A stretch of 64,000 nucleotides of DNA from Siphonodentalium dalli (taxonomy: Eukaryota; Mollusca; Scaphopoda; Gadilida; Siphonodentaliidae). The notes under the pieces are model-generated. The model saw only the letters and a list, made by a program, of their open reading frames with translations, did not search any database and was not told the DNA's origin. Position 1 is the first letter of the stretch; each line of letters opens with the position of its first letter. The stretch lies in contig CP136061.1 of NCBI GenBank assembly GCA_032622095.1, forward strand, positions 189,046,369 to 189,110,368, written 5' to 3'. A program made the position numbers and the translations under genes. Positions 249 to 30,300 of the stretch are shown here, piece by piece.

Positions 249-306
249 GTCAGGTTCGAGTCAAGAGAGGCAAGCTATTCCTCTGATGGATTATGTGCTT
301 AATGTG
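249..306 (+). CDS. HUWE1: HUWE1 exon 1 of window
   Basis: A 58-bp internal exon following a pyrimidine-rich ttctttacag acceptor and ending GTG|gtaaga. The first base completes a codon from an upstream exon outside the window. It encodes 19 residues ending MDYVLNV, which in vertebrate HUWE1 directly precedes MKFVEAIL, the start of the next exon. An alternative AG five bases downstream (253) would shift the frame and is disfavoured. Confidence 0.85.
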
Positions 307-3300: not shown

Positions 3301-6300
3301 ATGTCTAAACCCGCGGGTGGTTCATAATCTCCTCCTTGTAGCGTAATTTATACCATCCATGTATATAAGCGTCCCTCTTATTTATAGCAGGCAAATTACC
3401 GGTAGCACATGGTGCCCAAATGTTAATTTAAAGTTATCACGCGACCTTTTTTTTGGGTCAAATATAGGCACATATGTATAATATACGGTAAGTATATGTT
3501 TAATTTATAGTAGGGTAAAAACATATTTGTACCGACATATATGTGCACAACTTTCCGAGAAGATGTGCTATTTGCAACTGACAAGATCAGTATCTGCAAT
3601 GCGAAAAATCAAATCGTTATTGCATCACCATCTAATTATAAAGTGACATGTGGGGGTTTCAATTGGTGTGCACGGGGACCCCACATAACACATGCTTCGA
3701 TCCAACTTGGTACACGGATTAAAGACTTGTGGCCTGTACCGAGTTACCCACGCATTTTTCAGTTTGCACGGATACCGAAATTACACAACGATCCAGCTAT
3801 GAGTAGTCAAACATGATGTTAGTTACATTGTCATTAAAATGTCGTAAAGATCAGAGATGCCGTCTGGCAGCTGTGCCCTTTATGTAACAACGTTGCAATA
3901 GACTAATACACGTTGTATCGACTTGTTACACCGAGTTGTCATAATTATCTGATTCCCGTTGCTTATATACGGTGACAAGGCACACACGTACGCTGGCAAC
4001 ACATGAATAATTTCATTTCCGAAGATACAGTATTTTTAGTTTTGATTCGGTACGGTAAATCGGTATTACACTGATACCGATACCACACGGTAAATACCGA
4101 GTACCGCCCATCTCTAGCTAATGCCATGGTTGGGCATCAATTCATAACTTGGTTTGTAATTTCTTCGACGAAACCTGCATTCATTTGATACATAAGAATA
4201 TGGGCCATCTTCATTTTTTTCTCCGACTCCTTACTAGTATACCTGCAAGCAACATCTCTTGCTGGGTTGATTTTCGAAATCTCACCTGTTATTATTTATG
4301 TTTGATTTGTTTTAAAGTGACACACTGTTGATTAAGATGGCCTCAGTGTGATTGTCACTTGGAACTGCTATTTTCACCAATATTTAACACCAATGATCAG
4401 TGTGTCCTTGAGGTGACCTCCATATGTGATTGGCAATTTTTTCCTTACCGCAATAAGAATATGACAAAATAAAAATGCTATATTTTTTTGTGGAAAAAAA
4501 TGAAAACGGATACCTCTTTGAATGGCCTGATGTAAATGTAATAAATAATACAGTATGCAATGAGGATATAATGTCAATGACACAACAAGTGATTTCATAC
4601 ATATACGCTATACTGAGCATACTATATTGACTGTAGATGTATTATCTTTAAAATCCAGCAGGGTTACCAATAGTACAGTACAGTCCATGTATGTTGAAGA
4701 ATATGACTGACTTGATTTTTATCGTTTTCATGAAAACTCACCGACAAATATGGTAGCTCAATATTGAAGTCTTACCAGTTGCTGACTGACAGCTTCAAGT
4801 GTTCCACGTTTGCATGTTTTAAATTACTGGCACAATTGCGCTATATTCTTGGCAATCTGTATGGTCAATGTAACTCATGTTTCAGTAACCCTTTCGTTAC
4901 TAAATGTTTTCTTCTATAGTTGTAAAAATACATTGGAATACTCTATTATTGATTTAGGAAATATAAGCAGACAGTTAAAAAAAGATAATTGAACTATTGA
5001 AGGATTCATATTCATTGGTGTGAAATGTCTGAATATTTCCTAAGGGAACTACTCTTCAATGAGTATTTAGTAAAGGGTTAATTCCCAGGTATGCCATGGA
5101 ATTGTATGTACTCATTATGCCATACTTCTTTCAGATGAAATTTGTTGAGGCGATTTTGAGTAACAATTCTACAGACGATCATTGTCGAGAGTTTGTAACT
5201 CAGAAGGGTCTTCTGCCACTCATGGGAATATTTGGATTACCAAACTTGCCGATTGATTTCCCAGCATCTCCGGCATGCCAAGCTGTGTCTAGTGTTTGCA
5301 AAGCTATTCTAGTAAGTGTTTGTCTTAGCACCAAATTGGAACTGGACAGCGGACATAGCTATTTTGCAGTTCACAATAATATTGAATTGATTTCTTATAA
5401 TCAGGTTGAATACCTCCTTCCATGGCCCAATGTAAATGTATTAGATACAGTATGCAATGAGGATACAATGTCAATGACACAATGTGTGATTTCATACATA
5501 TACGCTATACTGAGCATACTGCATTTACTATGTTTTAGATATTTTAACTCTCAGATCCAGTTCCAAGGGCTTTTGCTCAGTCAACCTGTCCTCTGTTGAT
5601 AGAACTTATTAATGTTATAGATTATGCCAATGATTTGATCAAACTGTTTGTCACATTAAATTAAGTGCTAATTGAAGTTTCATTGCCTGCATGACAGTTG
5701 GAAAATGCTAAATTAAAGTTCTTTAGTAATTTACTTAAAATTTTAAGTCAATTTATCTACTAAAATAAGAATTGGATAGGTAGCTGATTAGATCATATTA
5801 CTCACTGATCAATAAAAAGGAACAAATTATATGAAATTTTATTCAGAAATTTGTTAATCATGTTCGGATATAAATAAAAACAAATAACTCCTCACACACA
5901 TGATATACCAACAATGTGGACATTATCTAAACATCATGAAGGTCCTGAAGCCAGGTCTATTGCATAAATATGAAGTCTTGAAAACATTTCAGTTATTGAT
6001 AGATCTTGTGCATATTTCAATACAAGACTGATAGACATTCTTTCACGATACAAAAGTTTTATTTCTAAAATTGATATTGGTGGGATATCTAAGCAATAAA
6101 CTAAGTACATATATATTATTCAATGTTGAGAAAGTATGCTATGAGGATTCCATGCCAATGACACAATGAGTGATTTCATACATATACGCTATACTGAGCA
6201 TACTGTTCGACTAAATTTTAAACAATCAAGTCCTGAAAACATATCAGTTGTTGATAGATCTTGTGCATATTTCAATACAAGACTGATAGACATTCTTTCA

Positions 6301-9300
6301 CGATACAAAAGTTTTATTTCTAAAATTGATACTGGTGGGATATCTAAGCAATAAACTAAGTACATATAAATTATTCAATGTTGAGAAGTGTGCTATGAGG
6401 ATTCCATGCCAATGACACAATGAGTGATTTCATACATATACGCTATACTGAGCATACTGTTTGACAAAATTTTAAACAATCTGTTTATAAAAGAAAAAAC
6501 TGATCAAATCCATACTCATTGCCTTGATAATTTATCGATAGTTTGTAGCAATACTGTTATTTCACTTAGAATATCCAACTTTCAGACATTATCTAGAGAA
6601 CCTCAAGTGCTAAAGCAAGGTCTCTTGCACTTGAATGAAGTGCTGCAAAATTTGGAAACGCTTCACAAACCTTTGGAGTCTCCTGGAGGATCTGTGTTGC
6701 TGCACGAACTTGCGATGTCTGCTCAGCCTGATGCTACTTTAAATCCACAAGCGACACCACTGCTGCACTCGCTGTCATCAGTACATGCTTACATCATGAT
6801 GTTCGTTCATGTCTGTCGCATGGGCCAGGTAAATATCATGTTCTGTGAACAGATCTGTTAATAGATTTAAGCAATGAATGTAGATTGCATTTATTTTTCA
6901 TGTTAACACTTTCCAAACATCATTCCACAAATTTGGCAAGTTATCTTAATACCTGCATTCAGCAATTGCGTTCTTTAATGCAATGATGATTTTGACAAGC
7001 ATATGTCTGAAAAACACTTGCTGACTAATAATCTCTGAGCATGCAATTTTACCTTGTAGAATGCTAACAGGAGGTTCAGTAATATTTGATCACTCAAATT
7101 CAGCATTCAACATGCTAAACAATCTAGCAGGAACTTCATTCATTGTTTGTTTAATAAATTACTAGATATGTCTATTATGCATAGAAATAAAAAATTATGT
7201 ATAATATGGTCCTTTTTGTTGGAACTTGCACTCAATTTTCATTTCCTGATGATAACTTTAGTAACTCTGAACTGAATGGAATGAAATATGGTATGTGAGT
7301 TTACTAGCCCAAAATACAGGTAAAGTTCAAATTTAGGTTTCGCCCTCCAAATTTCACCCGAGTTATGGCCCTTTGTTGGAATTACCAACGATGCTGTTGT
7401 TAAATCTGTATTGTAATAGTCTGGTGTCAATCATGGAAAAAGTACTTCAAATGGGAGATAGATCTCAAATTAAAATTGGAAGATTTTTAGCAATGACCTT
7501 TCACTATCTATTTTTTCAGAGCGATATCAGAACAATATCTGTTAGTCATTGGGGCTCGGAGTTGGGTCTACAGGTGCTGTCAAGTCTGAGCCGTTTATAT
7601 ACATCTCTTGTCTGGGAGAGTACAGTTCTACTTGCATTGTGCAGTGATTCCATACTACCTTCAGATTGTGAGTTTGGCAAAAGCGATATGGAAAAGTTGA
7701 TATCCAAAGAAGCAAAATCTGAAAAAGATGCTCAATCAGATGATAGTGGCAGCAGCCTGGTAAGAGCAAGTAATGAAATGGGTAGCAATGGTGTCAGTGC
7801 TGCCATGGAATCCCTGACAACATCGGAGTCATCTGACTCGCCGATGGAAGTCTGTGTAGCTGTGACTGAGAAAGACAAGAAGCTGAAAATATCCCCAGCT
7901 TTTCAAGCTCAGATTAAGCAACTCAAACCTTTGCTATCGGTGTCGTCGAGACTCTGTCGGGCTCTTTCTGAATTATATAGCCTGCTTGTAAAGCTTAGTG
8001 TGGGCAGTCCAGTCAGGCAGAGGCGGAGCCACCAGGTGCCCAACACACCTACTACACCAACACCAACTGCACAAGCTGTGGCTAAAGCTTTAACAAATTT
8101 GTTAACACATGCTCTATCATGGGAACCACCACCTTATTCTCCTGTTCCGAAACTAAGGTGAGACATATCTCCTCCCTAACTCACCTGACTCATATGGTCC
8201 TTAGCTGCTAGAGCAGGTCTAGTGGAACTTTGCAGGCAATGAGGAAATCAAAGCAATGATGAAGAATGATTACCAACATATACGCTATACTGAGCCTGCA
8301 CTGCCATCTCATCTTCTTGTCTACTTGGAAATTTATTTATTATTTGTTTATTAAAATCAGCATATACTTTTGTAATTAGTACAGTGCCTTTTCAAATCAG
8401 CAAGAATTTTGTTTTTGGTATTTGTACTGACCAGTATGCACATGTACATAACTGTAATGCGATATTCAATGTGAGATGTGATATGATCAGCCTCGTGACA
8501 ATTTATGTTCCAGGTTGACCTTCTTGATATGTTCAGTCGGTTTCACATCTCAAATGCTCTTTGATGAGAAGAAATATCCATATCATTTAATGCTGCAGAA
8601 GTTTGTCACATCTGGGGGACAAGAAGCTTTCTTCAAGTAAGTGAATTTTCCCACACGAAAAACTTTTGGCAGGGGATATAGGATTGGGGTCTGTCCATCT
8701 CGAAAAGTTGTCCGGTGGTTATTTCGAACAATTTTGAATGAATTTAAAAGATTTTTGGTATGATTTCACAAGGGGAATATCTGAAACTAGTTTGAAAACT
8801 AGGCCCAACCGGAAATCTTCACCAGTGTTGCAGATTTTGATTGTAATTTTTTGATATTTAGCACCTGCTAAAATTTGTTCGGGGTCATTTCGAACAATTA
8901 TCTTTTTATGTGTACCCATACCATGTATGGTACACATAATGCCGACATCCGGATCAACCATCCGTCGTTCGTCCGTCCGTCTGTCCGTCTGTCCGTCTGT
9001 CCGTCTGTCCGTAGACGCTTGCTTTCCGATTCAATTACTTGAATATTTTTTATCGGATCGTGTTAAAATTTTATGTGCATGTTTATGATAACACACTCCT
9101 CACCTGTATAGTTTTTGGTATCGATCAGTTGATCGGTTTAGAAATTATTAACACTTTGCATCCGCACATAGGCATGAGCCATCCGATGCTGTAACCAAAG
9201 TACTTTTTGTCCGATTGTTTTCATATTTGATATGTAGGTTTATAATGACACACCCCTCACCTGTATAGTTTTTGGTATCGATCGGTTGATCGGTTTGGAA

Positions 9301-12300
9301 AAAATTAACCCTGCACACAAATGCTATCTGATGCATCTAAGTCAAACAATTTTCTTCTGATATGCCTCATATTTCTTACCTAGGTTTTTCTTAGCACGTT
9401 CTTTATCTGTATGGTTTTTGGTATCGTTTAGTTAACCCTTTCTGCTCTTGTTTTTAAATAGACTTAATCCAAGCTGTGTTAACTTAAATATTTTTCTTCT
9501 GATCAGCACCAAATTTGGTACATATGGTCCTCACCCCAAAATACAGATCAGGTTCAAATTTGAGTTTGATCTGGTATATTTTAACAGAGTTATGGCCATT
9601 TAAAATTCAAGTAGCTTATAATCTAATTAATGCCTGCAGGCTGTCAGCTTAGCAGAGGAGATCTTATTACACAGCCAGTGTCTTATTGGAAATGAGTTTC
9701 TCTTTAGCTTCACATTAGATAAATACCATGGCTCACAGAGTGTTTAGGGGTTCTCCTTAGCCAATGCTAGTTGGAGACAGACAAATAACACTAAGTGAAT
9801 AATTGAGCTCATCTCTGGAGAAGCTTGTCACAGCATCTGGGCTGTGTGCAGTGTTTGTTTATTTAAGTCTCACATTCCTATAATCTGATCTCAAGCCTCA
9901 CTCTACTGCATAAATAAAATGAATATGACAGTGATGGCCAGAGGTCTGCTGTCTATATAGTCTTCATGACATTAGGGACTGGCTTGTTGTGTGGGTTTTG
10001 CTAAATCCAATGACATGCTTTTTATAGACTTTTTTGTGTTTATCAGTTCATTAGTTTGGATAAGATTAACCCTATTCTATCTGATTTCATAACTCAAATA
10101 TTTCCATTTATTTTATTTATAGTTCTTGGCATAGTTTATGATAACACACCCCTAACCTGCATATTGAGAGTCATATGGTTGATTTGCTTAAAAATATTAA
10201 CATCTCCACCAATCCTGTTGACACAATGTGATACTAGTAACTAGATATACTTTACATGATCACTATATATAATTGCATCCATGTTGATGCATTCTTCACT
10301 TGTTTAGATTTTGGGATCGATTGGTTTGATAAAATTAACCATAAATTATATTTCCGCTGTTACATAAATTACATCTTTCCAATGTTCAGCTTAGAAGAAA
10401 ATTAACCCTACCCATTCCAATCCATGGCCATACAGTATGCTATCCAATGTAATGAATCTTATTTTCAATCTGACCAATCTCATACTAGTACATATACCTC
10501 TAGCTATCTAAAAATTCAGCATTCAAATATTTTATATCCAATCATTATCAATAATTTTATATCCAAGTCTATACATCCCTCACTTTTACAGTGGTTCATG
10601 TATTGATTTTTTAAATGGGAAATATTAACCCTTTTCTCCCATCTAAATGATCCCATGAATTTTTAATATGCAACTAACAAAAAACATAATAAAAACAGCT
10701 ATGGTGCATCTTTCTGACTATGGATTTAGCTTAATTAGCTTTATCACTCTATAAGACATATCTGGTTGAAATTGATTGCCATATCCATGTTCCTATTGTG
10801 CATATGTGAGCAAGGTGCCCAGTAAGTCTGATTCCACTTGTGACCTCAATAGTAAGGTGTGAATTGTTGATTTTTTTGCACTCATGAAAAGGTTGGTGTA
10901 AGAATCTATTAAAATAGCTAATCAGTATCGCCAAGGTATGGGTTAAACATCTGCCGATCGTGATCGGCCTCTCGTTGTTATACAATATTGAAACAATTTG
11001 GGGCCTACGTGCATGACATGTATTAATGTTCCACAGAGTGTATAAATTCATGAGTGTAAATATTTTAGTATGCTACATTAAATTTTTTCCAAACGTTTTT
11101 GTTTACATTTGAAAATTACTCCAATTGTTTCAGATCTTTCGAGTGGGCACTGTCAATGGGTGGCAAGGTTTCCCTGAGTGAAGGTTTAGAGAACGTTGAT
11201 TTGCCAAGTGAGTAAGAAAACATTACCTAAATTGGGTAAAATAATCTCTGATTCTCATGTGTTTCAAAAAGAAATTGAAATTTGTGCGCTGTAACATGAA
11301 TTTACAGGGGTGCATTGTTTGTCAATGTTGCCATGCTAATAAATATTGTGGTTGAGTGAAACCTTAAACTATTGTTTATACCCATGTAATGATGATTTTG
11401 ACAAGCATATGTCTGAAATTTTTTGCTGATTAACAGTCTCTGAGCATGGGATTTTAATTAAGAATTCAGTTACTAAACAGTCTCAGTGAGGAGCATCTTT
11501 ATGTTTTCTTTAACTCTTTTGAAGCCATGCAGCATTTACAGACCAGGGACCAGGCTTGAGGGTGACTTGGGAGACATCTTCTCCCTCAAATGTGCCTCTT
11601 CTCCCTATTTTTGTCCCAGAGAAAAGTGACCTCTCTCATACCAGTATGCATTTTAAAAGTATATTTACTGACTATAATTCTGTTCTTACTCACTATAATG
11701 GTTTTAGAAATGGGCTCTTGTGTTCCATAATATTTATTGGATCACAGAAAGGTGATGTTAGGGTGTAAATTACACTTGAGCAATTATGACTTCTCCCTTA
11801 CAACAGTCCAATTCTCCCTAATAACCAAACAGGGAGAAGTTACTTCTCCCAATTTGAAACCTCTGAGCTGCTCCCTGATAGAACCCCCAGTTCTAAGCAT
11901 TCCCCCCCTCAGAGTCAAGATATTGTGTTATTTCTGAAAACAAACAGCCGAATAAAGAGTAATGGCTCAATCAAATGAATTCTAAGCTTAGTTGAAATGG
12001 TATGATTTCAATTATCCACTCCAGATATATTGCTTTCTAGTATTGGGAGTTATCTTAAACCCTCCCACAAAATTGCTTCGAATCCTGTTTGTTCTATTAT
12101 AGTAAATACTACTCAAATGTACATTAAAACTCAAATAAATTTGACAACAACAGAACTTACACTAAGTATAAATACTTGGCACATTATTATGGCTCTGGCT
12201 ATACATTTACTGACTGACCTCAAAGAATATAATGACCGTAATCCCATATCGGCAAAATATTTGGTCTGCTTATAACGGGTCCATCGATAGACAATAGACA

Positions 12301-15300
12301 ATAAACAACCTGGTCCGCATGTCTTCACAAAGTTGCACATCCTGGACCAGGGACACCTTCCAATTTCGCAAATATGCATGATTGGTGTTGTAGGGGTAAT
12401 TCACATTAATTTATAATTGCGAATTTGGCATAATTTTTTTTTTTTTTTTAAATACCTCTGATAGTATTGTATTATGTAGAGAAATGAGAATATATATGTT
12501 GGGCAACAAAAACATAAAAAAAGCTAAATATTGAAATCAGAATTTATGTGATTATTTTAATTTTAATTTGCTCTATGCTCACTGATGATATTAATGTTCT
12601 GTTTCATTGTAGCTGGAACTGGTGAATACCTTGATGCCTGGCTCTTGTTACTGGAGAAGATGGTGAACCCTAAAACAGTGATAGAATCTCCACATACATT
12701 GCCAGCCAAATCAACTCAAGCTGGATTCCAGCCTTTTGATGCTGCTAAATATATTGTCAGCACTCAACGGGTTTGTAGTAATTCTCTTACTTCAATTACA
12801 AATCATCAAAAATAATTTGACAGATAAGCAAGCCATGAGGATTACGATAGAATGATGTATTGTGATTACATTACATATACGCTATATACTGAGCTTGCTA
12901 TGCAATGAACTCTACCGTGCATTGAATTTTGGTTCACCTAGGGGATCAAAATAGGTCAATAAACATGCTATTAAATACTTTTGAGCTCAACTTTACTTTG
13001 TGAAGTTTGATCTATTGCCATGGCTTGGTATCCGTCATCCATGTGTGTGTGCATGATTCGTCAACAATTTCCTTTAGCACGGGCTACAGGCTGTACCTTT
13101 GGTCGGATCATTATAAAATAGCTGTTGACATTGACGAATAATTTTTGGGTTATTTGGAGAAAAAAAACATGACTGCCAGTGGCCATCTTGGATTTCAAAA
13201 TTCAATCAGGTCCTACTGTTCCTCTGATCATCATGAAATTTGTCTTGGGGATGTTAATATTGACATGTTGATGGGAATGAGTAATTTTGGGGTCATTCCG
13301 CATTGGCACTTTCATTATAAATACTCATATATAAGGCCACACAAAGTTGATTATCTGTTTCGTTTACACTTATTTCATACCGGGCAGGCAGGTTTTTATA
13401 CGCCTGTTTTGAACAAAACATATGTTATTGGTCTGTCCGTCCGTTCGCATTTGATATGCCCGTTTAAAAAAAAACATATGTTATTGGTCCGTCCATTAGC
13501 TTATTGATATGGCACCTCTGATAATTGTTCATTGAAATAATCAGCATAATAAATAAGACAGCACCATATTTTGTTTAAATCAGTCTAAAATCGAGAACAT
13601 GCGAAAAGCAGATACTCAGAGCTATATAAGATATGAGATGTGATGAGGGTGCACAATAACAGAGAATGTCACATTGTGCTGGCTAAGTTGATTATAAAGT
13701 TATTAATGAGATGGCAGTGTTAACAAAATATGCTTGGAGTGACAGCTCTGTTGATTGATATCCTAGAGCTCTCAGCCTGGTAGAGAGTTTCTATATAAAT
13801 GATCTATGGCTTATGATAACAAACTAGATCCCTAGGCCAAGTGTGAATCGGACATTTAGGCCATTAAAAATCAAACTCAGGAAAATTTGATATGGGAAAC
13901 TGAGATGAATTGAGTCATGTTTGGTGTGGATGCTCCCCAGGTGACTGGGATTCAGTTCTGTTCAAAAAGTGACATAGCTATCATAGCTAGGTACGCAACT
14001 CTTTCCATCCATAGTAATTCTTAAAACATCTTAAGAACCATTGGGGCTATTTAGCTTATATTTGGTATGGAGGGTCCTTGGGCGACAGGGATACAGATTT
14101 GTTCAAATTGTGTCATTAATGTTTTTTTTGTTTTGTTTTGTTTTAAATGAAAATAAAAAATTTAATTTAAAATTTAAATTTGGAAAAACTAAACACGTTA
14201 TAACATCCGCTAGGGTACATGGACTTATCCCACCAAATTTAGTTGAAATCTGTCCCGTGGTCTGGTAGAAAAATCACGAAGACAGATTGTTACTCTTGCC
14301 AATTGGAAGTGTCAAAGTAAGTACATCTACCCCTGTTACAGATATTGTTCTTTCTCATTGCTAATGCCATAATATTTGAGAAGTCATCTCTTTTACTAAC
14401 AATATAAAGCTTGTTTGCCTGCCATTCTTTCTAATGTCTCCTGTGATAAACAAATTAACAGATAATGTTTATTTGTGTCATTCATTTCAATTAAAATTAG
14501 ATTAATCCCCATGTGCTGTGTTCTATGCAGGTCTGCAGGCAAGTGTTACAATATTATGTTTATATAGGCTATTAACTTCTTTTCATCTGTGATAATGATG
14601 TGTCTTGTTTATTATGCTGATGATTTCAATGAACAATTATCAGAGGTGCCATATTGATAACCCTTCCCATAATTTTGTAACTTATTTTGAGGAAAATGAA
14701 CTCACTTTAACTTCTATTACCGTACTGACCTGCATTTAGGCCCAGGGGGCCTTTGTTTTATTTGAGCTCAAAAATCCAAGTGGGCTTAAACTCGGATATG
14801 GCCCTTTGCAGACCAAAAATCCTAAGAAATCGGGACATTAAAACTTATGAAAGCCGATCTAACGCCGATTATTTGGGAAATATACCCGGCTTCCAGATTA
14901 AGTAAAGGTAAGTATTTATAAGTTACTTTGAGAAAGTAATTTTTCAATTAAATGTGAATATTAAAATATTATAATAACACTTTTAAGTCTTGTAGTTTTA
15001 TTGCCCAAAATTCCCATGTTAAAATGACACTATTATGTAAGCGGCATTGTGGGTTATGGGTAAATCCCTTATCTTATAGTCTATAAGACGTCTATAGTTT
15101 ATATCAATGTTCAGACTTAATCCGATTAGGAAAACAATAAACCCAACGCTTTATTCGTGATCAATTGTCCACATAGAGGATGTTACAATAGCGACTAATT
15201 GCATGTTTAACAAAGGCCAGTGAGTGTAATTTTGTAACAGTACTGACAAAAGGCTTGTATTTCTGCTAAAACGTATAAAAAAAACCACCATTCTGAACTC

Positions 15301-18300
15301 CTCGACCTGTGACCTCTGGGTGTGATGGAATCTGACGAGGTTTGTCGAATGAAAAAAGCACGTGTTTGAATATTTAGTGTTATTGCTACTGAATTGTTTA
15401 TACTGTAAAACGTGAACAAAATGCAGTTTGATGTCGATAACCTTTATTTTGGTTTCGAGTGAATAACGTTGACGTAGTTTGGAAGACAAGTTCCCCCTTC
15501 TGTTCCATTATTTTACCCACTGTGTGTTTACATAACCAAGAAGCCAGTTCTTTGTGTTTGGTCACATGCAGGAACATACCTACAGTACGTTGTCACTGAA
15601 CACGAAAAATATGTTTTTACAATACTGTAGTTGAACAGGTGCGCTTTGATTAAAGTATTGCACGCGCATAGCCGCACATGGTTTTTAAAGCTTGTTTGTT
15701 TGTTAACCTTTTATTTCCCCCGGGAAGTATAATTGAATAAACAAATGAGAATTTAAGATTCACTTTATTTTATTTCATTTAATATTATCACTTTTCGTGG
15801 CATTCTCGCCGTCACCGATCGTTTGCGAATATGCTTCCCGTTATATTGGAATTATTTATTTGGGGAGTATCATTAGCAAATACTTACTTACCACTGCTGA
15901 AATTGACCAAAATTTGGGGTGGGCCTAAACACGAATATACCCCTGTGCATGGAATTTGGCCAAAAGATATGGGTGGGCTTAAACACGGGCATGGGCTTTG
16001 AACCGGGTCAGTACGGTACATACAACATGTACCATTTGAAATTACTAGATCAATGGATCTCATAGATTGGGACTTACATTTGGTTCAAATAGGGGCAGAG
16101 ATAAGAGATTTAACACCCGCATCCACCCTGTCTATGCTATGAATTCATGTTTGGTACTTGTATATAGATCCCTATATTAAGAGCGGTAATATCAGTAAGG
16201 TTTTGAAAAATTTCCAACAATTGGGGATCTTGAAGTACCAGTTGTAATTTAGTTTGTTCCTGTTGGGAGGTAATGGGTAATAATCTATTGGGGAGGGGAA
16301 GAGGGGTGTGCACTTAGAAATTTCAAGGTGGACACCCCCATATCCTCTCAAACCATTCAAAGAAGACCCTCTACTGTGTCCCTGTTTAGAACTACTTATT
16401 TTAAAGTCAATTGACGACAATTGTAGTCTTCAGAGTCCCAGTCTTTACAGTCTGGTGAGCAACCCTACAGTCATTGACTGTCTTGTTAATTAGGTAATAG
16501 TTCTTTATAAATTAAGCTTTATGTTCACACTTAAGTGTTTATTTTCTTGCAGACTGCCTTCAATGCTGTGATGAATTTATGGAACAAGAAGCCTCTCAAG
16601 ACATATGGCAGCAGAATGTCTGAATCCATATTGGCTATTCTTTGTCATATCATTCGTGGAGAGCTTATTAATAAGGTATGAAGTATCCTTGTACTGGCAA
16701 ATCTAAACAATAATATTAATATAAAGAAAGTCTAAGACCACAATTAAATTTCCCATTTCTCAGACCCACGTGCAAAGTCTCGAAATCCCATGCATGCAAC
16801 CTTTTTATTCGCATTTATCCACTCATGTGTGGAAGTGAGATCGAACAGACCCGTTCCATTTTTAGATTATCAAGTCATTACTGTAATAGGTAATTATGAT
16901 TAAACATGTTAACCGTTTCATGACTGTTTCCTGCACTTTTGTGAAAACCCTGTGCCAATGCATTATCTTATATATGCGAGTCTCCCATAAGGAGCCTTGC
17001 ATATATAAGAGAATACATTGGCCTAGAAATGTTTACCTTGACCTTTAAGCCAGTGCATTATATTAGATATGCAAGGCTTCCCATGGGAAACTCTCATATA
17101 TAAGAATGCACCAGCACAGGGTCAATAATGCTGCACCAGCGAAGAATTGGGACTGAAATTTCAGATAATTGATAAAGTGTGTTTTTGTTCACACTTTTTA
17201 TGTGTACCCATACCATGTATGGTACACATAATGCCGACGTCCGGATCCGTCGTTCGTCTGTCCGTCCGTCCATGTATGGTACACATAATGCCGACGTCCG
17301 GATCAACTATCAGTCGTTCGTCTGTCCGTAGACACTTGCTATCCGATTCGATTAATGGAGTATCTTTTATCGGATCATGTTCAAATTTCATGTGCATGTT
17401 TACAATGACACACCCCTCACCTGTATAGTTTTTTGTTTAGATCGATTGATCGGTTTAGAAATTATTAACACTTTGCATCCACACATGGGCATGTGCTATC
17501 TGATGCAATAACCAAAGTGGTTTTTGTCCAATTCTGTTCATATTTGAAATGTAGGTTTATGATGACACACCCCTCACCTGTATAGTTTTTGGTATCGATC
17601 AGTTGATCGATTTAGAAAATAATTAACCCTGCACACAAATTCTATCTGATGCATCTAAGTCAAACAATTTGCTTATGATCTGCCTCATATTTCTTACCTA
17701 GATCTTTGTTAGCACGTTCTTTATCTGTATGTATGTTGGTATTGTTTTGTTAACCCTTTCCACTCTTGTTTTTAAATAGAATTCATCCAAGCTGTGAAGA
17801 CTTACATATTTTTCATCTGATCAGCATCAAATTTGATACATATGATCCTCACCCCAAAATACAAATCAAGTTCAAATTTGGGTTTGATCTGTTATATTTT
17901 AACAGAGTTATGGCCGTTTATAATTCAAGTAACTGATAATGTAACTAATAGCTGTTGTCTGCCACTGTGGGATTTTAAGAGAAGTTGTCATGCCACAGTG
18001 CCTCTCTTATTAGTTTTATATATTTTAGCTGTACACTAGATGGGTTAGATAGCCTTGGTGCCTGCAGGTGGCTGTCAAGAATATAATTAATGGATGGGTC
18101 TCTATTCTGTTCTGTGCAATATTAAGTTAACCCATATGTTGAAACTGGTTCATTATTAGTTAATGTACACCTATTCCAAAATTACAAATTGGAATAGTCC
18201 ATTGTTTATTTGTTGGGATGTTTTACAGACATTTTTGTTTATAGACATTTTTGTTTACACTCACACTGTAACTTAGAAATAAATTAACCCACCCATTCCA

Positions 18301-21300
18301 TAGTTCCTTCATATGATATCATTGAACATTATTAACCCTCTCTGCACATCATATGGTCTTCTGATGTTTTCCATCTGATCATTCTCCTATTCTATGTCCA
18401 GGTTGATGGTGATCCACTTTTCCCTTGCATATTTAATGATATTCTGCTGTTTACAGACATTGTATCTTTCAAATTATCAGCTTAGAATAAAGTTAACCAT
18501 AGATATACTGTATGAAATCCAATGTTATGACTCTAATATTTTCAATCTGACCATTCTCATATCTCACCTTTATTTATCTAATAATTCTGCTTTAAAATAT
18601 TTTATATCCAACCATTATCAATCACATTTAATATCGAAGTCTATACACCCATCACTTGTATAGATGTTCAAGTATTGATTGGTCTCTAATTCTATTATCT
18701 CATAACTTTTTAATATGAAGCTAACACAACAAAATTATGACTCAGATTCCAATGTAAGAAGTAGATAAATAGAGTTGTTATGTGCTTAATTTCATAACTA
18801 TTATATCTTTAACAGCTATGGTGCATCTGTCTGACTGTGGTTGGGTTATTGAGCTTTATCACTCTATAACACATACATGTATCTGTGTTGGAGTTACCCA
18901 CTTTTCGCTTGCATGGATTTTGCGATTAAAATTAACCCATTCCATAGACACATGATATCCGATAGGCAGATATTAAATTATCTCTTTCACCTTGAACCAG
19001 GTTCAGTAAGGATTTCTATAAGCCACCAATTGACCAATATTCATCATCGGATGAAATATCTTATTTTTAAATTCACTCAATTGCATTTGGGCTGCAGAAT
19101 AATAATGGTGCTGGTATTCTTGAGACTACTTATTGGTCAAATATTTCTCACCAATAACTTTTATAATCCCATCCAGGTTAATCATGACACATAAATTTCT
19201 TCACCTGTATAAATTTTGGTATTGATTGAATGGTTTTGAAAATATTTACCCCATATTTAATAATATTCTGCTGTTTACAGACATTGTATCTTGAAATTTA
19301 ATGCCATATCCATGGTCATATTGTGTTTATGTGAGCAAGTTGCCCAATAAGTCTGATTCCACTTGGGAACTATTAATTAATAGTAAGCTGTGAATTGTTG
19401 AAAGTCTTATACTCATGAAAAAATTGGTATACAGATTTATGAAAATAGCTAATCACTATCGCCAAGGTATGGGTTAAACATCTGCCGATCGTGATCGGCC
19501 TCTCGTTATGGAAATCTTTTCAAGAAATATTGACCCCGGGCAACTGAAATTAGAACTGGAACTAGCTGATGCAGAGTTGGATTGCTTCTGATCCTATATC
19601 ATATATATGTCCCTCTGAAATTAAAATTAAAATATCAAATAGCACGCAATCAAAGCATGTATGCCTTAAAACATTTGTCCTGAGAAACAAGCAGTTTACT
19701 TTACGTAGCCTAATATTATGAGGTCATGTGCTATTTTTAATAGTTTACTCCCTGCAGTGATGATTTTTGACAAGCATATGTCTGAAAATAAATGCTGATC
19801 AATTAATACTCTCTGAGCATGGGATTTAAACAATATTCAGAAATTCAGGAACATATATTTGTCGTTTCATCTAACATGCATTTGGTGTTGTATTATGCAA
19901 ATAAATTATATCCAGTTTGGTCATCTAGGCAGTGCTATTTTAATTTTGCCAATAAACATAAATTGAGCGGAAACACAAGAAAGCATGGGAGATCACTTCA
20001 AGCATTATGGACAAAGCTCTGGAGTTAGATTATAGACATGCGATCTTATAGTAATGGGTGCCATAAATTATGGAGTGCTTGGAATTTGAATCCTGGATCA
20101 GTTCAGATTTATATGTTGATCTGAATGTGATAGGCATTGATTTCATCCTTGGCAAATGAAAAACATGATTAAACCTTGTAAATAAAATGCTTGCTGTTTA
20201 TTTAATAAATCATTGAATATGGTGTTCATCTCATAAGAACATCTCTCAATGTTAACTCTTAAGCTGGTTTGTGTGTGGCATTGTGCTACTTTGTTCCTTT
20301 TCTGTGTTCTCTGTGTGAGAGAACAATAATGAATCGGACTAGATTCATAATACTAATTGAAAAAACTAACACGATTATCTCATCAAAACATCTTGCATGA
20401 CATCTTTGATCATTTGAACTGGCTACTCTTTGCAGGATGTGAAAAAATGTGATGAAGATGCTGCTTCAACATCATCCGCTGGAACTGGTTCCACACCAGC
20501 AACATCGACTGCATCAGCTCCATTGAGCACACCAGTGTCATCATCAGCACTAGCAGCAGCTGTAGTAGCAGCAGAAGCAGCAGCACCACCACCAGCAGGA
20601 CCAATAGCTGCATTGCCAACACCAGTGGAACAGCTTTCAGATACAGAAGCGGAAACAATGGCGAACCTTGATAATCTTCAGCAGGTATGTTTTGTATCGG
20701 TAAGAGTCTGCGTGACTACACCACAAAGCCTTTTTCTCGCCTCCATATTTCTACGGTTTCTATTTCTATTATTTTGTGTGGAAATATGTTGATTAATCTA
20801 CTGAATTTGAATATTGATTTTAATTTTATATTGTCCTGGTGATATAATTTGTTCTATTTCTAATAATTCAATTCTCCATTGGAATAAATAAAAAGCTTGT
20901 TTACTTTGATGCCAAAAAATTTTGTTGTGTTTCACAGGCTTCTCACTGATTTTCAAATGCTTATGCCCATGAATTTTATGTTACTTTTTTTCAGTGATGA
21001 GACATCTACGATTAATGCTTTTAAATGCTTTATATATTTCAGATTTGCTGTTTCTCTTATCAAAATATTACCATTTGTAGGTTTTGACTTTCCCAGATAT
21101 TTTGTTTAATCTTATTGAAAACAAAAATATTCATGAGACATAATATATGTTTGTTTCTGCCCAACCGTATGTATGTGAGGATTACGCTATTCAAATTTTA
21201 AATCTCATTCACAGCTGATTGACATGGGATTTAGCAGGGAAATGTGCATGGATGCCTTGATGAACACAACATCTGTTGAACAAGCAACAGACTACATGCT

Positions 21301-24300
21301 CACTCATCCACCGCCGGCTGTGCAGGTAAATCAATTGAATATGTGCGATAGAAATCAAGGAATACAGTACAGTACTCTCAGTGATGATCAAAGTTTGACA
21401 AGCATATATCTGATACTCAATCTTGTTGATAAATTTATCTGAAGAGAGTTTGGAAACTAGCTTCCTAGATATAAGTACTGTAAAAGTACTTTGAAGGTTT
21501 TTGTGGTTTAATAGAATTGTTGTATTCCACATAAGAACATATGCCACTCGTGACTTTTCACAGGTCTGTTAATTTGAAGTTGCTTACTAGGTCTGATAAA
21601 GGCAAAGAATAGTTCTTAAGGTTGTTTTATGGTATCCAATTCTCTAATATTAATGATTCCTGTTTCAACCTTTTAACTGTTAACAATTTTTACATGTTTT
21701 TGCTCCTCAATCTATGTAGCAATCTTCTTTATAGAGTACTAAGCAGTAACTAAAATAGACCCATTCATAGAATCTGAATATTAAGTATAAAATATCTCAC
21801 ATTGAAACAAACATTTTGTGTTGTTTTAGTCTCTGGGAATGGGAGTGGAGATGGAAATGACTGAAGAAGACCAGATGATGAGGGCGATAGCCATGTCTCT
21901 GGGGGATAATGTAGTTATGTCAACTGATGAGGTATGTTCATCAGTAGGTTGAACAATAACTGAACCAATGACCTACCTATTTAAACAATATAGGGAATGT
22001 GAAACAGGCCTGGACTTTATGAAAATATTTCAAGCCTGTGGAATTTCATTATATATTCTCTCACATTTTTGTAAGCCTACTCCAAGGCTGGGCAGCTAAG
22101 TAGTGCTGAAAAGGTTGACCATTTTTTGTCGCCGGATAGCTGCGAGGTATAATCTGATAATAACGGATATCTGATATTTTCAACCACCCATTTTACACTC
22201 ATACTGTACATAACATATGTATGAAGATATCGGGAATTTGAACTATTAACTAGATAGCAAACTCACTTGATGTTTATGAAGACAAAACTTGTACTAAACG
22301 AACTGATATCGCCAAAATCGTACAGTAATAAGCCATGTAACCCAGTGAACTGAAATATACAACATTTAGCCCAAACAAAAAATATATTTGATTCTCAGGC
22401 AATTGTTTTTTTTAAATTGATGTGGGAGCGAGGGTTTTATTTTTATTTTTTTCTGACCATAGATTGGCATAGTAAGCATTGGTTATTATCCGGTTATTAT
22501 ACCTTCCCAGGTCCAGAAAATGTAGGGAGAACTTTGTAATGGTAATAACTTAATTTAATCTGACATAAAGAATGACAAATTATGACATGTACTACCTGTA
22601 CATAATATAGGGATTACCTAGAATGATATATACATTGATATGATTTTAATATCGGCACTAACATTTTTAACAACACGCAGAACTACATATCTGATTCATA
22701 TAAAAATACGGAAGGTTAATGGAGAATTTTTACAAAAAAGATCTTACAAACTATCATAGAGTCATGATTCACTTATTCCGCTGACTAATTAGACTGTATA
22801 TGTACTGCAATGGATGATGGAAATAAAACTTTTTAAAGATATTTTACTTTTGAAATTTTGATTAGCAAATAACCTCACATTGACATGATTAGATAGTATT
22901 GTTCTAAAATCATATAAAATCCGTACCAGATTGCATAGCTAATATCCAAATGTGGGTAGCAAATGGCATCTGTTAATTTGCTCCCTAGAAATAGTCAAGA
23001 AAATGACATGCACTAAGAAATTTTCCGACTTAATGATAGATTATTACCAAACAAATTTATCTGGGAAGATTATGCATGGCGGGACAGCTGACCATGTGGC
23101 ATCGTTTGAGGTTTTAAAGGGGGTTATGACTGATGTTATACTGGCGCAAAATGTGACATTGTTTCTTAGAAATTCCAGAGTTTACATTGACAAGTTTTGG
23201 TGGGAAAGTTAACCTAATTGTTGGAAGGCTCTGATTATTGTATTGAAATAAAGGATCTCTCCAGACGACCGGTGCATGTTTTTCCCAGATATAGCAACAT
23301 CGAAGATGATGTTGTGCATCTTTTGATGTTGGACCATCAAAGTCGAGCCTGGATATAAGAGGTCGGACACGGTCATTGACCGAGCCAAATACACCTATGA
23401 CTGGCGCCGCCTTATTATCGTCCGTCAGTTTGTCCGGTGCCCATTATCTTCACAAAAAATATATAATTAAGGGGAAAACAACAAGTAGATGTATTATCCG
23501 CGGCAAAGACATTCAATTACAACTACTGTGCACTAAATATCAAATCCCCCCACCAATACAACGCGTTTTACCGAAAACATGTTAATGATCCGTTCCGTAT
23601 ACAGGACCTATAAATGTAATTTTAATGCAACCTCTAACCTAAATTGTCGGCGATTGATGATTGATCGCAAACTGCGAATTATCGCTGCCTTCACGTCCGC
23701 ACTATTTACGACTTTCTATTTTTAGAACGTGAAAAACCCAGAAAAAATGGCTGCCACTGGGGGGGAAAACTCCAACCAAGAAATACACTTCGTCGTGTTT
23801 TTCTCGTTTGACGTAAGATACACGGAGATGTCACAAGTTAAATCAGCACAAGTGTAATATATTCCACAAGTTAAGGGTGTTAGTTGGAGATTTAGCGGAA
23901 GAAATTCCGAAAAAATTCATACCGGGTAGTTTTTAAATCGCCGCGTTTTGAAACGTGCTCGTGTTTACTTGGGGGGAAGCACGGCGTAAGATTTTTTCTG
24001 TGGACTATTTTGCGCTACTATATCGGACAACTTCCGATTAATCTGATCCGATCCGGCCAATTTGAAATTAGCAATGGGCAGTTCAGTGACTTAGCACAGT
24101 ACATAATGTATGCAAAAGTCCCGATCACGTATAGTAATCCTAATTTTCCGATTTGATCGACATTAATAGTTTCAGTAACTTTAGTAAGTAATATAATTAA
24201 GAGTCGTTTTGTTTCACGTTTCCGCGATTCCGTGCTAATAAACAACTTATTGCTGCTATTTATTGATACCAGGTAAATGACAGACACACTTTTCAAATGT

Positions 24301-27300
24301 CAGACGCCGAATCTTTGGTGCCCGTCATTTTGTCAGACACTCAAAAAACAATTATATCCAGGCTTGATCAAAGTGCGACTTTGCAGCTTTCAATTCCAGG
24401 AAGACCTCCGATTTCGCCATAGATAAATACTACCAGATTAATCAGGAATTCTGGATTTCTGTCAAATTTTTTTTCCATTCCTGACTTTTAGCACTATTTT
24501 TTGTCCCCCGACGTTCCGTCGGAGGACTATAGAAATGACCCTCGTCCGTCCGTCCGTCCGTCCGTCCGTGCGTCCGAGATTGGGTACCTTCATGGTGTAA
24601 TCAACTCCTCCTACAGTTTTAAACGTAGAGATTTGAAACTCTGGGATATTGTTCCTAACATGTTGGTGATTTGCAACATCTATATAGCTAATCAAAAATA
24701 TAATATTTTCCATATTTTTGGGGGGGTTTTCGACTTAGAAAATTTGGAACATTTTTGCCTTTTGGATGAGATTGGGTACCTTCATGGTGTAATCAACATG
24801 TTGGTGATTTGCAACATCTATATAGCTAATACAAAAATATCATTTTTTCGTGTTTGCATGCGTTTGTTCATCGGGTTGTTTTGTCCAAGAAATTTTGCGG
24901 TGGTTTGCAACATCTATATACTGTATAACATTATTGCAAATAGTATCCTTCTAACAATTCCAATCATGAAGTTTACCACTCGAGTCGGGGGACATGTGGT
25001 CTGCGACCTTTTATTATTTTAAAAACCCTTTTCCTAAGTTCCTGTTCCTGTTTTGGCAAACAACAAAATAATTTTAATGCCATGTATTTTCTATGAAGTT
25101 TTAAACAATGTTTAAGATAATAGATCTCTAGGTCTTTTGACCCAACAACACTTGAAAAAGACATTAAGAGTAGGTTTTGATGGGTTTGGTTGGAAGAGGA
25201 CGAAAATGGTGATTTTCTGTTGTAATTTTTCTGGAACCTTCAAAATTGTAAGCATTTATACATTGAAATATGGGAGTAATATGAAAACATGCCCCTGAAC
25301 TTAAATCAAGCTATGGGCAAGTCTGTTAGATTAAGAGGCAAATTATAATCATTAAAGTTATCAGTGATGATTAATTTTGACAAGCATATATCTGTAATAC
25401 AGCTTGAAGATAAATTTATCTGAGATACGGCAATGAACTGCCAACCTCCTAAACGTTTGTGTTCTATACAAATGGTTGACAATCTTGAATCGCATACAGA
25501 TATGGAATGAGCACAAATTTAAATATATTTTCTTATACATTAAGACTTGAAATACGCTGCAGGATCCCGAGACCTTATTTTTTGTGAAGAATCCATTCAA
25601 TCATGTATTCTCTGCGGAATTTAAGTTTTTCAGCCAAATAAACATTTATAAAATGAACTGTTCCTAAAATTATGAGAAAATTAATAGCCCCCCCGTTTTA
25701 GCTTTACAGCCAAGGCTCAAAAACTTCAGGCCTGTTTGAAAACATGCCCCTGAATGCAAATGAAGCTATGGGCAAGTCTGTTAGATTAAAAGAGGCAAAC
25801 CGAAACGTAAATTATATAACCTCCCAACACTAATTGTAATCATTAAAGTTATCAGTGATGATTCATTTTGACAAGCATATATCTGAATTATAGCTTGAAG
25901 ATAAATTTATCTGAGATCCGGCAATGCATTGTCAACCTCTTAGTTTGTGTTCAATACAAATGCTCGACAATCTTGAATCATACAGATGGATTGAGCACAA
26001 AATTTTATAAAATGAAATGTTCTTAAAAATATGTGAATAACCATGTGGTCCAAACAAGTTGCATTTTTCATGCAAAAAATTGAGGTTAAATTCTTATAGG
26101 TATGTTAGAAATGTCCTATCCGTTCAGGCTGAGAAGAAAAAGGAATCAAAACCGCCACTCATTACTCAATTATCAGAAGATAAAAAGTTGAGTGATGAGC
26201 CTGAATACATCAGATTTTTCCACTGGTACTGTGTTGTTTGTAGTATTTGCGGTGAACAGGTTGTTGCAGACGATAACCAGTTGTCAACCAGATATCCGAC
26301 TATCCGTTTTAGCACTACAGCCAAGGCTTGAAAATTTCAGGCCTGTTTGAAAACATGCCCATGAATGCAAATGAAGCAATGGGCAAGTCTCTTTATATTA
26401 AAAGAGGCAAATTGTAAATTTTATTGTTGTGCGGTTAACCGAGAAAACAACTCGGTTTCTGTTTTAAAAAATACCGACCGAAATCGACCGATGTGATTCT
26501 GCCCCAACCGACATTACGTTTTTTTTTTGTATGTTTATTTTTCAATTGAATCAACTTTTTAGTTGATACTCTTGTCAAATAATCGGTCTCTCTGATCAAT
26601 TATATATTTGAATGTGTCCATTTCGTCTCAGATATGTGTTGTTATAATATCGTAAGCGTAAAATAAATTGCGTTGCGAAACGAAACTGAAATGAGGAAGC
26701 ATGTCGTTGCAAAAATGAGAATGCGAACGAAAAGAAATGTTTTACCACGTGGGAAATGGTCCAGAAACTTTTGGTTCTGGAACCTACGATCGATCGATGA
26801 GTGGTCACACAGTCAACATGAACTGCATGCAGTAGGTCGTTGACTTTTGTCACCTTTATTGTCAACTGTCTTAGAATAAGTGTGCACTTTATTTGAATTG
26901 ATGACGTGTGCATGACGAAACATTTTGTTCCGTGCGGAAATAAACTCGGTAGTTAGAACTGCAATTTCTGAAACTTCATTCTCCCGGCTAATCGGTCAAT
27001 AAAATTTAACTTTTATCTATAACGTTCAACGAAATATTACGAATTTGAGCCAGCCAATTGCCGTGTAATGTACGTGCACTTATTAGCGTCTTGTTGATCG
27101 CGGCAGTTATTTTTGCGCATAACAGTATCTCTAACCCACAAACTGAGCGGGAACATCAAAAGCGTAATTACGTCATCATTGTCGAGGAACTGGGCACATG
27201 CTACATCGTAACTGATTGATTAACACGGCCTTGTCTTTAAACGATATCGGTATCAATATAAGTCGCACGGGACTTCATCTTGTAAGCATGAAACGTCGCT

Positions 27301-30300
27301 GTATTTGCATTTCACTTTTATGTTTTGATTTTGGTATGGGGGATATATAGTCGGAAAAAGAGTTTATGGTCAGCGTCAAGAAATATGGTCAATCGGGCAC
27401 AACTATTTTGTGTTTGCTTAAACTTGATGTTCAATATGACTTTTATCTCACATTCTCATTAAAGTTCATGATTTAGCAACATAGCAAGCTGTTCCCCAAC
27501 TTATTATGACTCTCTGTAACTGGTAGTGCCTGTTTTGTCCAGTTGTTTTGGACTAATTGCTATATGTTAAGCGATTGCATACTGAAACCGAGGTTTTTTT
27601 ACCCAAAAAAAAAGAAACCGAAACGTAAATTATATAACCTCCCAACACTAATTGTAATCATTAAAGTTGTCGGTGATGATTCATTTTGACAAGCATATAT
27701 CTGAATTACAGCTTGAAGATAAATTTATCTGAGATACGGCAATGCACTGTATTTTCTTATACATTAAGACTTGAAATATGCTTCAGGATCCCAGAACCTT
27801 ATTTTTTATGAAGAATCCATTCAATCATGTTTTCTCAGCTAAATTTAAGTTTTTCAGCAAATAAAATATTTATAAAATGAAATGTTCTTAAAATTATGAG
27901 AAAATGAATAGCCCCGTAATCCAAACAAGTTGCATTTTTTTCATGCAAAAAATTGAGGTTACTCGCGTGTAGGTATGTTAGAATTGTCGTATTCTTTCAG
28001 GCTGAGAAGAAACAAAATAAAACCATAACTTATTACTCAATTATCCGAAGATAAAAAGTTGAGTGATGAGCCTGAATACATAAGATTCTTTCACTGTTAC
28101 CACGTTTGTTTGTAGCACTGTTGTTAACCGGTTGACCATACTTCAACCAGTTGCAGACAATAACCAGTTGTCAACCGGATATCCTGCTATCCGTTTTTGC
28201 ACTACAGCCAAGGCTCAAAAACTTCAGGCCTTTTTGAAAATATGCTCCTGAATGCAAATGAAGCTATGGGCAAGTCTGTTAGATTAAAAGAGGCAAATTG
28301 TAATCATTATAATTATCTGTGATGATTCATTTTGGCAAGCATATATCTGAATTACAGCTTGAAGATAAATTTATCTGAGATACGGCAATGCATTGTCAAC
28401 CTCCTATACGTTTGTGTTCTATACAAATGCTCGACAATCTTGAATCGCCTACAGATATGGAATGAGCACAATTTTAAATATATTTTCTTATACATTAAGA
28501 CTTGAAATATGCTTAAAGATATGGTAAGCGTTGGCAGTGGGTAGTCACATCTGTTAAAACTGCCATAAACAGAAAGAATATTAGAATATTATATTATAGG
28601 TAAATTTTGATCTTATACCAATAATAAGTATCGCGTAAATTGCCTGTTATTGTCATGTGAGTACTATGTGTTATGTAAACAAACAACATGTTATGTAAAC
28701 AAAGAGGATGCGATAAGCAAAACGCTTTACACTGGGAAGACCCCCCCAAGTTAACTTTGGTTAAAAATGACACCAAGTTGTTTACCACATAACGGTATAG
28801 TGTTTGTCTAATCCCTGCCTCTCAAGACTTCAGTGTTGAATGGGTCATCATGAATCCCTCTTCTAAAAAATTGCCTCTGTGTTGAGTGTTTTGCTTATCA
28901 CAAATAAACAAATGCTCAGCTCACACAACGTGTGTTTTGTGGATAATATCGCATTTATACTATCATTATCCTATTCTATTAGTCTATTCTTGAGGAAATT
29001 TGAAATTTTCATAATTTTGTAACTGTTATTTTCTAAATTATAACATGTAACAAAGGCCATTCGTGCCTTTTAGGATCCCGGGACCCATTTTTTTTGTGTG
29101 CAAGAATCCATTAAAGGAGTACAGTAGACTAAATCCGACCATTTATGGACCATCTATTTTTATTCTCAACAGAATATGTGCAACAAACAAATGAATTTGA
29201 GCCATGGATGAGTGCAAAATACAATTGTGCTCTATGAATGGTGCAAACAACATGGTAATTATAATGAAAATGAATTTATGACTGAGAGTCATAAATTAAA
29301 CTAAATGGCCAGATTTAGGGTACAGTACCCTTTTAAATCATTATTTAACATACTTGTGTGTATTCTCTGCTGAATTTAAGTTTTTCAACAAGTAAACATT
29401 TATAAAATGAATTGTTCTTAAAATTATGAGAAAATTATTAGCCATGTGATCCAAACAAGTTGCATTTTTTCATGCAAATTTTTTTTAACTTCATGCATAA
29501 AAATTAGTTAAATGCTGGTAGGTATGTTAGAATTGTCCTATCCTTTCAGGCTGAGAAGAAAAAGGAAACAAAACCACCACTCATTACTCAATTATCAGAA
29601 GATAAAAAGTTGAGCGATGAGCCTTTGGAGAAGTGTGTTCTGGATCGATTCACTGCTGATTTCACTTCAGGTATGTCTCATTTAGGGCATTATCCCTTTC
29701 CCCAATATGCGGATTACCAACATCACTGCCCACAGCAAACACTGATAGGTGATAACGTCACCATCCCAGCCTACGCAACTATTTTACGATGTCAATATAT
29801 TGAAAAGAAATTGGTATTTATGTTACATCATTGATGTTTAACTTCATCTAAATTCATATCCACTGAGTTGTGAATGTCAAATCCCCCACAGTATGGTATG
29901 ATAAATATTTAATTAGGTTTTATATATGATATTTAAAACAAAATAATATAAACAACAAACAATTGGTAAGTTTGTTATCAAAAATGTTTTCATCGTTTGC
30001 AAATCCAACAAAATTGTGTGATTTTTTCAATGCTTTAAGCAAATTCCATGTGGTGTAATCATACATAAATAAGCAATCAAGTAGCATATTAAATCCAGTA
30101 TATTTACATGTGAATGCAGTTACAGATGTCTGCTTTATTAGTCATACAAATCCATATTTCATCACTGATAACAACAGTATGTGTAGGTCTACAAATTGTT
30201 TATTTCTGACCCTGTCTTACAGGCTAAATTTCACCTTGACGACACAACAATCAGCCGATGAGCTTATGACGTAAAATTAATTAAAATCCTTTGTGTCCAT

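Follow-up and report, generated by a model that had tools for sequence, protein, structure and literature searches.

U27-type and U54-type box C/D guides in the introns of a scaphopod HUWE1 gene: probable multiplication in cis of two ancient families

Why should the introns of one protein-coding gene hold fifteen units that look like guides for the modification of ribosomal RNA (rRNA)? The question is raised by a stretch of 64,000 nucleotides from the scaphopod Siphonodentalium dalli (GenBank assembly GCA_032622095.1, contig CP136061.1, positions 189046369-189110368), which as a whole we call the window; its contig is C1 of the 9 that make up the 2.23-Gb genome. An earlier note on this DNA had reported eight copies of a U27-like small nucleolar RNA (snoRNA) in the HUWE1 orthologue, and had overlooked a second guide family, seven U54-type units interleaved in the same gene at 1796-12897. 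In our judgement the fifteen units are very probably intron-encoded box C/D guides of two ancient families, U27-type and U54-type, that reside in HUWE1 and were multiplied there in cis. All features are located in Table 1.

The eight U27-type units are all present where the earlier note had placed them, on the + strand and in HUWE1 introns between mapped exons, and each has the claimed box C, (A/G)TGATGA, and the claimed box D, CTGA. The guide and the box D' held in seven units each: the guide GACAAGCATAT is exact in all except U27h (guide at 28334), which reads GGCAAGCATAT and retains G-U pairing, and D' is CTGA in all except U27e (guide at 25379), where it is CTGT. Could such units be chance clusters of motifs, or a dispersed repeat that happens to hold the 11-mer guide? 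The bare 11-mer at up to two mismatches is near background (37 found against 26.17 expected; 3 of 100 shuffles had as many), and a dispersed repeat does lie in intron DNA nearby, at 8902-9631. The evidence is therefore the composite pattern of box C, guide and D', which occurs eight times on the + strand, never on the - strand, and on neither strand of 200 simulated windows (first-order Markov). The U54-type composite behaves likewise, with seven units on +, none on - and none in 200 simulated windows. In the whole genome the full U27 pattern, TGATGAN{2,10}RCAAGCATATNNCTG, has eight matches, all at this locus, and its reversed control has none. To the sensitivity of these whole-genome searches, an origin by chance or from a repeat is refuted, and we give it practically no weight.

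To what would the guides pair? As target we used an assumed 18S rRNA sequence. Against it the guide pairs at 9 of 9 positions over +3 to +11 in every U27-type unit, and D' +5 falls on A27 in all eight, which agrees with the aim proposed in the earlier note. Pairing is unbroken over 13 positions in U27a-c; U27d-h have a mismatch at +2. Six of the seven U54-type units also pair at 9 of 9 over +3 to +11, and in these six D +5 is the G of the assumed 18S stretch AATAGCGTATA, the U54 target. The seventh, U54g, has two additional bases between guide and box D, because of which its +5 falls on a U two nucleotides 5' of G644; if used, U54g would move methylation from G644 to that U. The passages of PMC3511168 that bear on these guides give U27 as Am27 and U54 as Gm644 of the small-subunit rRNA.

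The host gene is identified as the HUWE1 orthologue, as the earlier note had held, by + strand frames that match PDB chains of human HUWE1 in collinear order (best E 2.7e-90). In a comparison of three frames over window positions 1-43902, the matched human residues were 830-918 with 1126-1173 (E 3.8e-42), 765-833, 903-1128 and 1154-1193 (E 2.7e-90), 1193-1259 (E 1.9e-11), 1243-1286 with the UBA domain (E 7e-21) and 1441-1512 with the WWE domain (E 4.9e-17); the remaining frame comparisons inside this range gave no HUWE1 match. Splice sites read from the window delimit fourteen exons, a predicted map on which the placements below depend. The phase of candidate exon 12 agrees with exons 11 and 13; an extra small exon was sought between exons 11 and 12, and no good candidate was found.

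How do the units lie within the host? On the predicted map all fifteen are in the sense orientation between exons, and they occupy nine of the eleven introns between exons 1 and 12, introns 5 and 9 having none. The U54 copies are in introns 1 (two), 2 (three), 4 and 7, and the U27 copies in introns 3, 6, 8, 10 and 11 (four). Their distances to the 3' splice site run from 127 to 4122 nt. For vertebrates, the cited parts of PMC8162545 and PMC10234308 put the optimum of intronic box C/D units some 50 nt ahead of the branch point; judged by 3' splice site distance, none of the fifteen follows that rule. Most expressed human units also lie farther away than this optimum, and a terminal stem often compensates (PMC10234308, in the part cited). 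The U54 stems (7-8 bp), U27b (7) and U27d (6) fit such compensation for distance; U27a (4 bp), U27c (3) and U27e-h (3-4) do not. The U54 stem is paired in 49 of 49 cells, a level reached by none of 500 shuffles, and slid controls pair at no more than 53.1%. Its covariation score was reached by none of 500 shuffles, its number of pair types by 23 of 500, and three of its seven pairs have changed on both sides, which 17 of 500 shuffles reach. An independent scan for box C/D with a terminal stem returned 11 candidates on the + strand, 10 of them U27 or U54 units, and one on the - strand; U27c and U27e-h are absent from it because of their weak stems.

Several findings weigh against this assignment of the fifteen units. 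The targets rest on the assumed 18S because that of the animal itself was searched for and not found. In a scan of all 4,227 Rfam families, RF00086 (SNORD27) was the best family for each of the eight U27-type units (29.0-38.1 bits, E 0.0047-0.82) and at E ≤ 10 found no other place in the window, so that the SNORD27 likeness drawn in the earlier note stood as to placement; it fell short in score, since none of the eight reaches the gathering score of 52, and for this reason we call them 'U27-type' rather than members of RF00086. The gathering score of RF01277, 35, is reached by one of the seven U54-type units, the other six having 26.3-34.0 bits; that one, U54f, is the only unit of the fifteen above a curated Rfam cut-off. 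U27e-h are 1.2-4.1 kb away from the 3' splice site. Six of the eight U27 stems (a, c, e, f, g and h) measure only 3-4 bp, and the covariation of the U27 stem in alignment A1 is not above control, 101-145 of 500 shuffles being as high. When six of the fifteen units were folded, four did no better than shuffles; U54g gave z -1.88 and U27b z -2.50.

Are the copies kept by selection? All 24 of the 24 box and guide columns are invariant in U27a, b, c, d and f, compared with 12 of the 31 remaining ungapped core columns, a count favoured by the recognition of the U27 copies through these same motifs. Differences between core and flank, with p values as single tests, were 1/66 against 18/76 for U54a-c (p 9e-5) and 4/69 against 17/72 for U54b-c (p 0.004). 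To the unfavourable side belong the weak signals of U27e-f (p 0.03) and U27f-h (p 0.07), both measured on the 3' flank only, and the pairs U54a-b, U54d-e, U27e-h and U27f-g (the last on the 5' flank only), in which excess core conservation was not seen (p 0.79-1.0); where one flank was used, the other side was unalignable. The pairs U27e-g and U27g-h and those among U27a-c were left out because their flanks are unalignable on a side. Selection on boxes and guide seems to have maintained some older copies; U27e-h, the youngest, may be redundant and in part decaying. One could go further and suppose that most copies are snoRNA pseudogenes borne passively by intron duplications, with one or two per family functional. 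The lost D' of U27e, the box D of U54g displaced by two bases, the short stems of six of the eight U27 units and the young pairs without clear excess conservation would all suit this view, as would the human case, in which fewer than one-third of annotated snoRNAs are expressed and same-host copies range from silent to abundant (PMC10234308, in the portion cited). It sits poorly with U54a-c and U27a-d, which retain boxes and guide though spacers and flanks have changed, and with the U54 stems, at least 7 bp in all seven units and rewritten at several positions on both arms in U54f and U54g. We consider it somewhat improbable.

What events multiplied the units? Self-comparison of window positions 1-36000 pairs U54d with U54e in adjacent 258-bp blocks (96% identical), U54a with U54b in 164-bp blocks (93%), U27e with U27h in 279-bp blocks (91%) and U27f with U27g in 136-bp blocks (96%). 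Truncated copies of exon starts accompany some of these. The two copies of the start of exon 12 in intron 11, both of which take in the initial 75 nt and the 3' splice site of that exon, continue into an identical foreign downstream junction, so that one truncated duplicate was itself probably duplicated, an argument that presupposes the predicted exon 12 to be real. The shared flanks and truncated exon starts together point to DNA-level duplication in cis, sometimes including the start of the next exon, and the copy expansion proposed in the earlier note is borne out by the duplicated intragenic blocks that hold the close copies. Might the family have spread instead by retroposition? Long shared flanks are absent from U27a, b, d and U54f, g, which are in five separate introns, and this would suit snoRNA retroposons. 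Against them, the fifteen units are confined to a single gene and all point the same way, nothing convincing was found elsewhere, and neighbouring copies have flanking DNA in common, on one side or both, and even the truncated starts of exons; inspection of the flanks, without a formal test, showed no A-tail or target-site duplication. Retroposition is in our view very improbable.

A 2.6-kb segmental duplication joining U27b and U27c was considered and rejected, because 8902-9631 is a dispersed repeat. Collinear blocks do run through 8902-10976 and 17194-19507, of which only some 90 bp around U27b and U27c are specific. The repeat at 8902-9631 occurs in at least 39 other places at 96-99% identity, and 17194-17949 is 85% like it.

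Are there further copies in the genome? The bare guide with D' has eight matches, six here and two elsewhere, and the reversed pattern has four. The two elsewhere, on C1 (L021) and C6 (L028), were rejected as lacking a canonical box C: L021 has none before the guide, and the nearest to one in L028 is a degenerate CCGATGA. Their scores are 16.7 and 20.4 bits (E 0.0032 and 0.00025 in 9 kb), where the window copies, from which the model was built, reach 71.2-87. A U54 pattern, which U54g cannot match, gave six matches here and one on C2 (L014), which was rejected: it lacks the terminal stem, and part of model R2 gives it 13.4 bits. Another whole-genome U54 pattern gave none. The models built from these U27 and U54 copies, R1 and R2, found no additional copies in the window and 20 kb upstream, their next-best scores being 16.1 (R1) and 18.4 bits (R2), while the known copies have 71.2-87 and 73.8-98.3. 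A match in IMG/VR (L020) was taken as chance, no Rfam family reaching its gathering score there. Such searches would miss a strongly diverged copy or one inside stretches that are given as N. Those of BLAST type from single copies reach the nearest relatives only (U27a retrieved 3 of 8, U54f 1 of 7), and a genome-wide search for the Rfam families is uninformative, having found nothing even at this locus or in control genomes. Within this sensitivity neither family is found convincingly elsewhere in 2.23 Gb, and so the U27 gene elsewhere that the earlier note had named as a challenge to its view has no convincing candidate.

How might the arrangement work? The spliced intron would be debranched and trimmed by exonucleases back to the small nucleolar ribonucleoprotein, which would bring fibrillarin to 18S rRNA, the U27-type guides targeting A27 through box D' and the U54-type G644 through box D. 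Close copies would derive from local DNA duplication, and copies in separate introns would be relatives that have lost recognisable flanks. Having many copies would most probably serve dosage from a single long and presumably broadly expressed gene. A bolder proposal, offered tentatively and thought unlikely by us, is that HUWE1 is the sole genomic source of both 18S guides and that dosage evolves by the repeated copying of a snoRNA together with the intron end and next exon start, leaving dead exon stubs and tying modification of the ribosome at two sites to HUWE1 transcription.

Table 1. Candidate guide units, predicted HUWE1 exons and truncated exon copies, in window coordinates
Feature	Positions	Strand	Location	Remarks
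U54a	1796..1861	+	intron 1	RF01277 33.8 bits (cut-off 35); 7-bp terminal stem
U54b	4555..4623	+	intron 1	RF01277 34.0 bits; 164-bp block 93% like U54a
U54c	5452..5520	+	intron 2	RF01277 32.6 bits; 8-bp stem
U54d	6136..6204	+	intron 2	RF01277 27.0 bits; 258-bp block 96% like adjacent U54e block
U54e	6390..6458	+	intron 2	127 nt upstream of 3' splice site; RF01277 26.3 bits
U54f	8234..8300	+	intron 4	RF01277 49.1 bits (cut-off 35)
U54g	12829..12897	+	intron 7	RF00331 36.1 bits (cut-off 55); RF01277 28.4 bits
U27a	6978..7042	+	intron 3	4-bp stem; RF00086 38.1 bits; duplex to A27
U27b	11384..11447	+	intron 6	7-bp stem; RF00086 33.6 bits
U27c	19752..19820	+	intron 8	3-bp stem; RF00086 35.1 bits
U27d	21376..21447	+	intron 10	6-bp stem; 50 nt past 5' splice site; RF00086 32.9 bits
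U27e	25359..25427	+	intron 11	D' CTGT; RF00086 30.7 bits
U27f	25850..25918	+	intron 11	RF00086 30.5 bits; duplicate blocks
U27g	27668..27736	+	intron 11	RF00086 30.7 bits; duplicate blocks
U27h	28314..28382	+	intron 11	guide GGCAAGCATAT; RF00086 29.0 bits
Exon 1	249..306	+		weak collinear match, -1.3 bits, human ~757-776; splice sites
Exon 2	5135..5311	+		human HUWE1 PDB match; splice sites
Exon 3	6586..6828	+		human HUWE1 PDB match; splice sites
Exon 4	7520..8157	+		human HUWE1 PDB match; splice sites
Exon 5	8514..8636	+		human HUWE1 PDB match; splice sites
Exon 6	11134..11207	+		human HUWE1 PDB match; splice sites
Exon 7	12613..12770	+		human HUWE1 PDB match; splice sites
Exon 8	16553..16675	+		human HUWE1 PDB match; splice sites
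Exon 9	20436..20684	+		low-complexity stretch; evidence: open reading frame, splice sites, phase; PDB match absent
Exon 10	21215..21325	+		UBA domain; human HUWE1 PDB match; splice sites
Exon 11	21830..21931	+		5.4 bits, collinear; splice sites
Exon 12	29550..29670	+		evidence: open reading frame, splice sites, phase; homology match absent
Exon 13	34740..34870 (3' end approximate)	+		human ~1441-1490, PDB match; splice sites
Exon 14	42668..42783	+		WWE domain; human HUWE1 PDB match; splice sites
Truncated exon 12 copy: initial 75 nt and 3' splice site	26128..26202	+	between U27f and U27g	95% over 85 nt; frame open
Second truncated exon 12 copy	28001..28073	+	between U27g and U27h	88% over 85 nt; frameshifted
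Diverged exon 3 start copy	5920..5989	+	upstream of U54d	73% over 71 nt, E 3e-4; stops in starting frame

Other features of the window stand apart from the guides. In intron 12, 30708-34049 has inverted arms that are 98% complementary (542- and 357-nt blocks) and flank an open frame, 31651-32067, with matches to C2H2 zinc fingers; the whole looks like a mobile element. Similar arrays of a unit of about 163 bp, starting GGCTACAGGTCGTACC, occupy 46198-47330 and 52841-53677. A scan for transfer RNA genes found none. Outside the window, a genome search with a U14 pattern met three loci on three chromosomes (L017-L019) with TGATGATCA...ATTCGCAGTTTC in common, L017 and L018 being alike beyond it; Rfam recognised none of them.

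What is new, then, when the locus is set beside known systems? The U27-type units share with SNORD27/U27 (RF00086; yeast snR74, plant U27) the order C-guide-D'-C'-D, 18S A27 at D' +5, an intronic position and a length of about 65-75 nt for core and stem. They differ in being eight copies in HUWE1, whereas the vertebrate host of U27 is SNHG1, and in scoring 29.0-38.1 bits against a cut-off of 52. The U54-type units share with U54/SNORD54 (RF01277, clan CL00008) the box C ATGAGGA, the guide TATACGCTAT, a D guide to 18S Gm644 and an intronic position, and differ in that HUWE1 holds seven of them, in one of which box D is displaced by 2 nt. Neither U27 nor U54 was found in HUWE1 among the literature matches listed, and the name HUWE1 is absent from PMC3511168 and PMC2653536 as far as the cited text of each extends. 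Since no listed match names it as a U27 or U54 host, we regard HUWE1, as far as these matches go, as a new host in which known guides have greatly multiplied locally, and not as the home of a new kind of RNA. Has the host been switched in this lineage, as the earlier note supposed? HUWE1 might instead have long housed U27 and U54 across many invertebrates, vertebrate SNHG1 being the newer host, only the copy number being special here and no switch having occurred. That five units, each in an intron of its own, have no long flanks in common suggests that they have resided there for a long time, and intronic locations are described as unstable across eukaryotes in the cited passages of PMC3511168, so that the vertebrate SNHG1 need not be ancestral; we put this possibility a little short of an even chance. 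The same passages argue that snoRNAs drift among broadly expressed hosts, and the present case bears on that drift by adding HUWE1 to the hosts of two old 18S guides.

Multiplication under one transcript has its own precedents. SNORD115/116 are orphan guides in a non-coding host, SNHG14; their arrays resemble the present locus in that a single host transcript carries one box C/D family in many copies, and differ in that here rRNA guides are carried by a protein-coding gene. In chicken, where the host of U54 is RPS20, intragenic (cis) duplication of snoRNAs has been described, for that bird and its gas5-like host, in the cited part of PMC2653536. As there, paralogues are found here in introns of one host; in contrast to the chicken case, two unrelated guide families share one protein-coding host, with several copies per intron and duplicates that include truncated exon starts. 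The scaphopod gene thus offers, in one protein-coding host, a graded series of snoRNA duplication that begins with fresh tandem copies and ends with copies that have no flanks in common, and the question whether extra snoRNA copies are dosage or debris becomes directly testable within a single gene.

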